Translations under genes and position numbers: made by a program
Notes under the pieces: generated by a model
What the model was told of the DNA's origin: nothing
Database searches by the model: none
What the model saw: only the letters and a program-made list of their open reading frames with translations
From: an uncultured Bacteroidales bacterium
GTDB lineage: Bacteria; Bacteroidota; Bacteroidia; Bacteroidales; UBA932
Assembly (NCBI GenBank): GCA_900320795.1
Contig: ONTQ01000014.1
Span: 1-37,066 of the forward strand
Direction of reading: 5' to 3'
Length of the DNA: 37,066 nt
Shown: positions 26,540-28,009 of the stretch, piece after piece
Layout: each line of letters begins with the position of its first letter
Numbering within the stretch: position 1 is the stretch's first letter

Positions 26540-27589
26540 TCACAGCGTCTTGGAATAGTGGCACTGGAGAAGCTCGCAAGAGGAGCCGTGCCAGTTATGC
26601 ATGCCATTGCCAAGGCAGTTTTTCCACTGGGCACAGGAAGCACAAGAACCCTTCCTGGCCCAGTTTCTTTTTCTATAAGGAAGGAATTTTCCCTCCCACA
26701 CTTCATAGAAATTGTCCTCGTAAATACTGCCCTGTGAAAACAGGTCCCGGTCTATGTTGGGACAGGCGCAGATGCGGCCGTCTATGAGAATGGAGGCGAT
26801 GTTCACCCCTGCCCGGCAGAAAAAACGGGTATCGCGGACCTGCTCCTCGTATCGGCCCAGGAAACCTTCGCAACTGAAGGTCACTTTCATTCTGCCCTTC
26901 TGCTCCCGTCTCTCCCGGATGAATTCCATCAGGCGCACGAACTCATCCTTGGAAAGGTGCATCTCCGGATCCCGGGCGGCCCGGCCGATGGGAATCACCG
27001 TGAAAAGTCTCCACTGCGCCACCCCGAGGCCGGTCAGGACATCATGAATCTGAGGCAGTTCCGAAAGATTCTTCTTGTTGACACACGTCACGACATCGGC
27101 ATTGAGCCGGGGATCCGCCGCAGACAGGCCGATCGCGCGGACGGCACGGGTATAACTCCCTTTCAGGCCCCGCATCCAATCGTGAGAGGCTTCCAGGCCA
27201 TCCAGACTGATGGTGAGGGCTCCCATCCCGGCTCCCAGGAGCCTGGCATGCGCGGCTTCGTCATAGAACCAGCCGTTCGAAACCATTCCCCAGCCGAATC
27301 CACGTTCCCGTATGGCCCTTCCCACCGTTTCGATATCGGGCCTCAGAAGCGGTTCTCCGCCCGTAAGGACCACGATGAAATCTTTGGGCCTGTGCGAGGA
27401 GGGAATGGTATCCAGCGCCCGTAAAAAATCTTCCAGCGGCATGTCCTTCTCCCGGCTCTGGACAGAGCAGTCGCTCCCGCAATGCCTGCAATGAAAGTTG
27501 CACCGGGTGGTGCATTCCCAAAACAGATAATTGAGTTCGTGGACACGGACTTCGTTATCGCGGAAAAGACGGAATACAAACGGATTCAT
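26540..27589 (-). CDS. Radical SAM/SPASM enzyme of the rSAM/lipoprotein system
   Basis: The ATG at 27589 gives 349 residues. The canonical CxxxCxxC cluster motif is Cys30, Cys34 and Cys37 (C-N-F-H-C-R-H-C), with an extra Cys26 before it. G-G-E-P-L-L-R-P and I-S-L-D-G-L-E follow as in the radical SAM core. The C-terminal part is Cys-rich (C-R-A-G, C-A-C-P-N, C-A-S-C, W-K-N-C-L-G-N) and matches a SPASM domain that binds auxiliary iron-sulfur clusters. It resembles a group that, from memory, NCBIfam describes as a Bacteroidota radical SAM enzyme encoded next to a small lipoprotein (TIGR04133/TIGR04134). The divergent lipoprotein at 27629 fits. By analogy with other SPASM enzymes it may modify a peptide or protein, possibly that lipoprotein; no substrate is known to me. 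Confidence 0.88.
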   Translation of the reverse strand: MNPFVFRLFRDNEVRVHELNYLFWECTTRCNFHCRHCGSDCSVQSREKDMPLEDFLRALDTIPSSHRPKDFIVVLTGGEPLLRPDIETVGRAIRERGFGWGMVSNGWFYDEAAHARLLGAGMGALTISLDGLEASHDWMRGLKGSYTRAVRAIGLSAADPRLNADVVTCVNKKNLSELPQIHDVLTGLGVAQWRLFTVIPIGRAARDPEMHLSKDEFVRLMEFIRERREQKGRMKVTFSCEGFLGRYEEQVRDTRFFCRAGVNIASILIDGRICACPNIDRDLFSQGSIYEDNFYEVWEGKFLPYRKRNWARKGSCASCAQWKNCLGNGMHNWHGSSCELLQCHYSKTL

Positions 27590-27593
27590 ACAT

Positions 27594-27627
27594 TTGCAAA
27601 TATAGAAAAGAATCGTTTTCTTTGCAA
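27594..27627. promoter_or_regulatory. Fully interlocked divergent promoters of the radical SAM gene and the lipoprotein gene
   Basis: Minus strand: TTG (27627-27625), 20 bases, TATATTTG (27604-27597), a full match that drives the radical SAM gene. Plus strand: TTG (27594-27596), 20 bases, TTTCTTTG (27617-27624), one mismatch, for the lipoprotein gene. The ends form an inverted repeat TTGCAAA/TTTGCAA and the centre another, GAAAA-gaatcg-TTTTC. Each predicted start lies within 2-5 bases of its ATG. Confidence 0.65.
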
Positions 27628-27628
27628 T

Positions 27629-28009
27629 ATGAAATGGTTGCACAATTTACTCAAAGGCGTCTCCGTCACCGGAGCCCTCTTTGTTTTCCAAGCCTGCTAC
27701 GGCTCGCCCCAGCATCCCCTCTATGAAACCGGAGAGGCGCCGATGCGTTTCTCCCTGGTATCGGATCAGACCGGGAAACCGCTGGAAGGAATCGACATTC
27801 TGACCAAGTCCTGCAAGAATGGTGATTTCATCCAGATCGGGACCACCGGGGCTGACGGAACATGCGATGTAAACATCCCTTTCATCCGTAACGAAGAAGG
27901 GCCGCTCATCCATTTTTCAGACGGGAAAGGAGTGTATGTTTCCCAAGACACGACGCTCACCGATCTTCGGGAAAGGGACATCGTCATCAAAATGGAGCAG
28001 TGCCTTTAG
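27629..28009 (+). CDS. Small lipoprotein partner of the radical SAM enzyme
   Basis: The ATG at 27629 gives 126 residues. A lipoprotein signal leads to Cys23 (F-Q-A-C), followed at once by Y-G-S-P; a C-Y-G-x-P start is, from memory, the hallmark of radical SAM-associated Bacteroidota lipoproteins (TIGR04134). The mature part looks like a small beta-sandwich of transthyretin or carboxypeptidase-regulatory type (P-L-E-G-I-D-I at 51-57, T-G-A-D-G-T-C-D near 73-80). It contains three further cysteines: Cys62, Cys79 and the penultimate Cys125. It is the obvious candidate substrate or partner of the enzyme at 26540-27589, which is inference. The stop overlaps the ispH stop by 3 bases on the opposite strand. 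Confidence 0.85.
   Translation: MKWLHNLLKGVSVTGALFVFQACYGSPQHPLYETGEAPMRFSLVSDQTGKPLEGIDILTKSCKNGDFIQIGTTGADGTCDVNIPFIRNEEGPLIHFSDGKGVYVSQDTTLTDLRERDIVIKMEQCL

Follow-up and report, generated by a model that had tools for sequence, protein, structure and literature searches.

A conserved Tyr-Gly motif in lipoproteins adjoining TIGR04133 radical SAM/SPASM enzymes of Bacteroidales, a candidate site of splicease-like maturation

What does a radical SAM/SPASM enzyme do to the lipoprotein that is encoded beside it? The question is raised by a divergent gene pair in a 37,066-nucleotide stretch of DNA from an uncultured Bacteroidales bacterium (contig ONTQ01000014.1, assembly GCA_900320795.1), which was analysed as a whole and is called the window here. 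The initial annotation had described the pair as a modification system named by bioinformatics only, and had pointed to the extra cysteines of the lipoprotein as possible sites. The pair is real, with its two ATG codons 39 bp apart, and the two NCBIfam models concerned, TIGR04133 for the enzyme and TIGR04134 for the lipoprotein, are both of the type 'hypoth_equivalog'. A survey of conserved residues, however, singled out Tyr-Gly (YG) and not cysteine. That YG is the site of the enzyme is well supported by the sequence comparisons given below, and with moderate confidence we propose for it the role of a splicease-like radical SAM/SPASM maturase, which would act on the X-Tyr-Gly of its partner before export.

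The partners were collected at 133 enzyme loci, 78 of them kept from a genome collection that was capped at 80 loci, with 582 candidates encoding a relative; the other 55 came from searches of whole genomes. Each of the 133 differs from the rest in its enzyme core. A script blind to the motif retrieved lipoprotein-like open reading frames (ORFs) at 250 bp or less from the enzyme, and 96 lipoprotein-like ORFs of the same loci, at distances above 2 kb, served as controls. Ten duplicate loci (L005, L037, L039-L044, L054, L062) were left out of the partner count, as were L003, L004 and L038, where the script found no family enzyme. At least one adjacent lipoprotein-like ORF was present at 127 of the 133 loci, and at 121 of these 127 a YG occurred no further than 50 residues from the lipid Cys, in the form YGxP at 99. 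Counted per protein, early YG was found in 124 of 153 adjacent lipoproteins vs 14 of 96 controls (Fisher 4e-26) and YGxP in 102 vs 2 (Fisher 5e-28), part of both groups being chance frames since the lipoprotein detector is a crude script. Among representatives below 40% identity, the figures were 58/83 vs 13/85 for YG (Fisher 4e-13) and 45/83 vs 1/85 for YGxP.

The flanks of the motif were compared in 141 motifs, chosen as a YG near the N-terminus or with a nearby Pro, in which Tyr and Gly are thus present by definition. The residue before Tyr was C in 78, E in 32, M in 12, V in 6, A in 5 and L in 3, with a few others; the residue after Gly was T in 72, S in 14, V in 13, P in 12 and M in 11, with others that include one G (L104, CYGGP); and the second residue after Gly was P in 112. 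The common feature of the partners appears to be X-Tyr-Gly, mostly X-Y-G-x-P. Its distance from the lipid Cys ranges from 1 to more than 70 residues, it may be repeated, and it may be C-terminal. It is carried by unrelated scaffolds: Ig-like domains, sequences resembling coiled coils, in which it occurs one to three times (L149, L014, L152), 15 very small lipoproteins with a mature part of 38-54 residues that appears acidic and unstructured, and, at L150, a long linker bearing the motif as a C-terminal tag. At L206 (G153:C61, 2379-4048), five co-directional lipoproteins of differing sequence precede one TIGR04133 enzyme and read CYGSP, MKYGTP, CMYGAP, MKYGCIP and TKYGIP, two of the five motifs being C-terminal. 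A second lipoprotein without YG occurs at a few loci, e.g. L146.

To avoid circularity, models were also built from the Ig-like domain alone, with the motif left out, and YG was scored in the 45 residues ahead of the domain or in its first six. These models matched 140 proteins in the locus set, omitting L004, L005, L037, L039-L044, L054, L062, L178-L188 and L209-L216, and 134 of the 140 have YG. The six exceptions are L201 (genome G330), L202 (genome G393), L207, an additional copy each at L079 and L011, and a match at L104; L207 is a paralogue in G153 whose contig stretch lacks the enzyme, and the L104 match is weak and probably unrelated. The 134/140 figure is the unbiased count, because the partners in our alignment A4 were pre-selected by YG: it holds 21 of the 46 YG partners that are not of the CYG type, hand-picked as full-length Ig-like proteins, plus two from enzyme-less genomes, and the invariance of Tyr and Gly among the 21 is a selection effect, the 46 having been defined by YG. 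Alignment A2, 46 of 63 long CYG-type lipoproteins, was likewise selected by CYG.

The initial annotation had held that lipoproteins occurring without the enzyme would speak against the system. TIGR04134 is above cut-off in 58 of 393 sampled Bacteroidales genomes, and 55 of the 58 encode the enzyme (E <= 1e-60); such lipoproteins thus exist in three genomes, of which two have lost YG while the third, G251, keeps CYGSP. In the first two, G330 and G393 (the latter 75% complete), a profile search in which every candidate was scored did not detect the enzyme, nor did a sequence search run without a positive control. Their lipoproteins read VAGNGSPYAKF and EDNKTPHADY, where the aligned relatives mostly have EYGxP followed by A-x-F/Y; Tyr, or Tyr and Gly, is lost, and Pro and its flank are retained. 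Tyr-Gly therefore seems tied to the enzyme and Pro does not, in a small sample of two losses within one family. The converse search, with a degenerate DNA pattern for FQACYG, gave 36 places in 34 of the 393 genomes. Of these, 24 are at a distance of up to about 0.5 kb from a TIGR04133 match and were taken as partners, the sequence being inspected for some only. Of the other 12, one (G046) is a real lipoprotein, whose neighbour at the contig end is a fragment of the enzyme; six fall in frames that lack a lipoprotein signal, and five outside any frame of at least 30 aa. This pattern revealed no enzyme-less FQACYG lipoprotein in the 393 genomes.

A Tyr-Gly that is fixed between free neighbours, as at the X-Y-G site of PlpX, is what suggests a splicease. 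PlpX spliceases excise tyramine, and according to PMC10533398 PlpX cuts at X-Y-G; two of the splice tags given there, PIRPLYGLPI and PIRPGYGLPI, have the form X-Y-G-x-P, and most tags were rejected at the FtsZ sites tried. PMC11002830 assigns PlpX to IPR026482 and has it work with the RRE (RiPP recognition element) protein PlpY, and a review relates that spliceotides were discovered via nif11 precursors adjoining orphan radical SAM enzymes (PMC8868522). In Nostoc C057, a nif11-class maturase of TIGR04103 (853 bits, cut-off 725) is encoded after a Nif11 precursor with the ending RGSIALYGLPPELF, and the precursor of the Nostoc PlpX-type locus carries ALYGLP. TIGR04103 is presumably the same family as IPR026482, and we are aware of no further radical SAM chemistry whose site is a fixed Tyr-Gly between free neighbours. 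The window enzyme and the Nostoc enzyme align directly with 28% identity over 294 aa, and before the SPASM cysteines they read GFLGRYE and GYYGPYE, respectively. In plasmid records, the best matches of the window enzyme outside TIGR04133 were an Agathobacter protein (148 bits) and the Nostoc enzyme (129), followed by the GDL type (108), MftC (101), TIGR04053 (97) and NirJ (95). Over 16 relatives, the best single E-value outside the family was that of TIGR04103 (2.3e-42). In the wider enzyme group, the protein adjacent to the enzyme at L156 ends LLYGTPPVPLYQAPSK, with the motif YGTP. The window lipoprotein offers its X-Tyr-Gly as C-Y-G.

In the proposed sequence of events, the enzyme would bind the signal peptide of the lipoprotein as a leader in the cytoplasm and, as we infer with moderate confidence by analogy with PlpX, excise tyramine at YG; the lipoprotein would then be exported, lipidated and cleaved, X in the window being the lipid Cys itself. 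That any modification has to precede export, as initially remarked, is right in principle for a cytoplasmic enzyme. If spliced, the window lipoprotein would carry an alpha-ketoamide where it is anchored to the lipid. Since spliceotide products are described as protease inhibitors (PMC11117315), the leading guess for the function of such a membrane-anchored product is a tethered protease inhibitor or another electrophilic trap.

The leader role of the signal peptide is suggested by its conservation. Signal peptides usually diverge fast, and those of control lipoproteins show 11% mean pairwise identity; in the CYG type (n = 78), the 18 residues before the Cys reach 55%, vs 16% for the 18 residues after the motif. 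Common descent adds to the identity of the CYG signals, yet it bears on the mature part too. The length of the enzyme leaves little sequence beyond the radical SAM and SPASM parts to serve as an RRE. Among ORFs of at least 60 aa within 3 kb of the enzyme at the 133 loci, many with only 1.5 kb of flank, no conserved third gene was found, in a search that did not extend to smaller ORFs or to other parts of the genome. The lipoprotein cluster, present at 114 of the 133 loci, is at most loci the sole neighbour found; the next clusters cover 20 loci, taken as antisense frames of the enzyme, and 11 loci, a secreted barrel-like protein in the near relatives of the window. With a conserved signal, little room for an RRE and no conserved third gene, the signal peptide is the likely recognition element in the CYG type. 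The idea rests on this type, because in the 46 other YG partners the signal (18.5%), still above the control value, is not better conserved than what follows the motif (20.2%).

These non-CYG figures are one of several points that weigh against splicing guided by the signal peptide. Another is G251 (94% complete, 300 contigs), in which no enzyme was found and whose contig C265 keeps a CYGSPQ lipoprotein; the two together lower our confidence in tyramine excision slightly. A further PlpX tag, GYGVVFP, departs from YGxP (PMC10533398). Some enzyme loci also lack the motif. Six have no lipoprotein-like ORF within 250 bp: no YG lipoprotein was found near the enzymes of L026, L068 and L120, whereas the partner of L025 lies about 1 kb off, L036 is at a contig end and the partner of L093 is truncated by the contig start. 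At six others a lipoprotein is present and early YG is absent: the partners of L006 and L008 read YAVP, near the C-terminus; L057 has no adjacent YG lipoprotein; L075 and L109 are both at a contig end; and at L143 a YG lipoprotein is present further away. In the wider enzyme group, the L155 precursor ends VLYMAHSK though its enzyme is close to that of L156, and at several loci (L157, L160-L163) no clear YG precursor was found.

By score, the enzyme does not belong to TIGR04103. The window protein reaches 116.6 bits, under a cut-off of 725, and is matched slightly better by NirJ2, TIGR04053 and heme b synthase; for the 16 relatives taken together, the E-values of TIGR04053 (2.5e-42) and heme b synthase (5e-41) almost equal that of TIGR04103. 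Profile rank was set aside as a means of decision, all 25 families listed matching 16 of 16 proteins with close best E-values outside the family, and so was phylogeny alone: a 30-protein tree sets MftC, NirJ, TIGR04053 and TIGR04347 apart as a clade of their own (98/99) and does not settle the nearest neighbour of TIGR04133, nor its place beside the TIGR04103 group. No PlpY or RRE gene was seen among the same neighbouring ORFs, within the size and distance limits given above, and the window partner has a signal peptide in place of a Nif11 or nitrile-hydratase-like leader. Finally, Lgt and LspA must tolerate a spliced lipid Cys, and to our knowledge there is no case in which X is a lipid Cys.

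Of the other explanations, the one that survives best, though we consider it unlikely, is a different chemistry at the same Tyr without splicing, such as side-chain or C-alpha/C-beta cleavage, beta-oxidation or dehydrogenation. The same comparative YG evidence applies to it, and in profile scans the heme, mycofactocin and other maturases score near the PlpX family; simple side-chain chemistry, however, leaves a fixed Gly with free flanks unexplained, which the X-Y-G site of a splicease fits. It is improbable that the lipoprotein is not the substrate at all, YG serving in sorting or binding and the enzyme acting on another molecule. Direct modification is here proposed from sequence, Bacteroidota sort lipoproteins by the residues after the lipid Cys, and G251 keeps CYGSP with no enzyme detected; on the other side stand the variable distance of YG from the lipid Cys, its repeats and C-terminal positions, its loss in the homologues of two enzyme-less genomes and the lipoprotein being the only neighbour found at most loci. 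We give as little credence to a three-residue cyclophane joining the Tyr ring to C-beta of the second residue on (Y-G-x): radical SAM/SPASM cyclophane enzymes do use aromatic-x-x sites and Thr takes the place of x in 72 of the 141 motifs, but x is unrestricted, with 12 Pro and the one Gly, devoid of C-beta, of L104, and the fixed position is the middle Gly. The extra cysteines named initially, three in the window lipoprotein, are very improbable as sites of a thioether, which SPASM maturases often make, or of another modification, and a Cys thioether as the general chemistry of the family is rejected, because cysteine is not conserved: no cysteine other than the lipid Cys is present in 50 of the 78 CYG-type partners or in 21 of the 46 other YG partners, and the penultimate Cys is found in the window protein only (1/78).

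The coordinates of the window pair are given in Table 1. For the enzyme, the mechanical ORF extends upstream of the ATG at 27589 to a GTG at 27643. Its TIGR04133 match spans residues 5-347, and its membership of the radical SAM superfamily is confirmed by PF04055 (62.1 bits, cut-off 29.5) and the CxxxCxxC motif. The SPASM character claimed initially holds as well, with 28.9 bits for PF13186 (cut-off 21.5) and seven Cys (240, 258, 276, 316, 319, 325, 343) invariant in 16 aligned proteins. Foldseek matches include SkfB, SuiB, anSME and PqqE; these PDB matches are generic SPASM maturases, and the fold of the enzyme did not decide an assignment. An anti-phage viperin (PADLOC pVip, 61.9 bits) was dropped because TIGR04133 is far ahead (466 bits); the pVip match covers only the shared radical SAM core (residues 23-222). 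A near relative of the window enzyme at L036 (G003:C64, 3233-4318) has its C-terminal part in another frame close to the contig end, either a broken copy or an assembly error.

Table 1. Coordinates of the enzyme-lipoprotein pair in the window
Feature	Position	Strand	Remark
Radical SAM/SPASM enzyme, 349 aa, TIGR04133 family	26540..27589	-	466 bits vs cut-off 425
Enzyme clade: divergent TIGR04133 clade with lipid-Cys-Tyr-Gly partners	26540..27589	-	
SPASM-type region, residues 240-343, including CEGFLGRYE	26561..26872	-	
Cluster motif C30xxxC34xxC37, then GSDC41	27467..27502	-	Invariant in 16/16 aligned proteins
Intergenic stretch between the two divergent start codons, 39 bp	27590..27628	.	
Partner lipoprotein, 126 aa	27629..28009	+	Divergent from enzyme gene
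Signal peptide, residues 1-22, CYG-type consensus about GLSLTTALFVFQA	27629..27694	+	Proposed also as leader for the enzyme
C23-Y24-G25-S26-P27, lipid Cys and YGxP motif	27695..27709	+	Proposed X-Y-G site, X = lipid Cys
Predicted single beta-sandwich, transthyretin/carboxypeptidase-regulatory-like, residues 34-122	27728..27994	+	

The lipoprotein is as first described, with C-Y-G-S-P after the signal and three further Cys at 62, 79 and 125, the last being the penultimate residue. Its signal, MKWLHNLLKGVSVTGALFVFQA, ends in LFVFQA directly before C23, and the lipobox Cys was recognized by inspection and by script. The profile check suggested initially bore out the enzyme and not the lipoprotein, whose sole NCBIfam match, TIGR04134, reaches 16.7 bits (E 0.0056) under a cut-off of 39.8; yet an alignment of its relatives matches a TIGR04134-type alignment in hhalign at 99.2% (E 5.4e-20), which makes it, by profile comparison, a divergent relative of TIGR04134. 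Its predicted structure (predicted local distance difference test 90.7) has one transthyretin-like beta-sandwich behind a signal helix and a short linker; for the sandwich, PDB matches (best E 1.1e-4) were too weak to decide an assignment. The divergent orientation is found for 8 of 78 CYG-type partners.

The genome of the window holds a second pair on another contig, C182 (enzyme 560 bits; lipoprotein with MYGQP, 80.8 bits against TIGR04134), as well as one unlinked lipoprotein that scores 90 bits against TIGR04134. The latter (L038, G000:C178:3481-3930) retains the motif, as MYGPP, although unlinked; one enzyme may therefore serve several lipoproteins. TIGR04133 matches at E <= 1e-60 in 97 of the 393 Bacteroidales genomes, in 87 above cut-off. 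In a draw of 296 genomes across the phylum, the window's own included, the enzyme was matched in two, that genome and G576. The non-Bacteroidales enzyme of the latter (L208, G576:C41, 1744-2244) adjoins a secreted-looking EYGV protein without a lipobox Cys, hinting that lipidation is perhaps dispensable. Outside Bacteroidota, Treponema saccharophilum has a plasmid-borne enzyme/CYG-lipoprotein pair (L165, plasmid pTS1, 2782-5074) with the motif SCYGMPENYY; it adjoins an annotated master DNA invertase Mpi family recombinase, a context that suggests transfer and perhaps phase variation. Two tandem TIGR04133 enzymes occur at L097, L098, G322:C2 and G386:C81.

Our literature search returned no paper on TIGR04133, TIGR04134 or the TIGR04134 product name, and IPR026482 only in PMC11002830. 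By title and start of abstract, none of the splicease papers that it listed is tied to Bacteroidota lipoproteins; splicease papers in Chem (2022) and Chem Sci (2024) may cover the family. The YG motif reduces an 'unknown modification' to a single mass measurement, -135.08 Da at one residue. If tyramine is excised there, natural membrane proteins of gut bacteria would bear electrophilic ketoamides, possible protease inhibitors in tethered form and possible targets for tetrazine labelling, and RRE-free enzymes that read signal peptides would be useful for protein labelling. Only tentatively, and a little short of probable in our estimate, do we generalize to a Bacteroidales lipoprotein class backbone-spliced by an RRE-free splicease, with the signal as leader at least in the CYG type and the lipid Cys as the spliced residue in the window clade. 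That clade would then have a membrane-proximal alpha-keto-beta-amino lipid anchor, a lipoprotein modification of which we know no example.

Compared with known systems, the window enzyme shares its fold with MftC, PqqE, SkfB, SuiB and other SPASM maturases, which have other substrates and motifs. The GDL-motif maturase TIGR03913, which is found with DUF1843 peptides, is a close relative of the PlpX-type enzyme, its versions on three Azospirillum plasmids being 47.5-48.4% identical to the Nostoc protein; some of the peptides carry LYGV, PYGV or PYGA, but they are small and soluble, and others have YAA or YMA in place of YG. At L158 (G189:C3, 2955-3596), a 214-aa protein with six KYGYP repeats, which matched nothing in NCBIfam at 0.001 or in Pfam at 0.1, adjoins a TIGR03913/TIGR04103-related radical SAM enzyme. 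Like the TIGR04133/TIGR04134 systems at large, the window pair consists of adjacent genes, with the enzyme above cut-off and the lipoprotein homologous by profile; it differs in that the lipoprotein is under cut-off, the motif directly follows the lipid Cys and the genes are divergent. With PlpX/PlpY it has in common, as far as sequence can tell, a SPASM maturase, an X-Tyr-Gly site, in some cases X-Y-G-x-P, and a G-aromatic-x-G-x-Y-E stretch, whereas the candidate substrate is a lipoprotein in place of the Nif11 or nitrile-hydratase-like leader peptides of PlpX, and X in TIGR04133 partners is often the lipid Cys.

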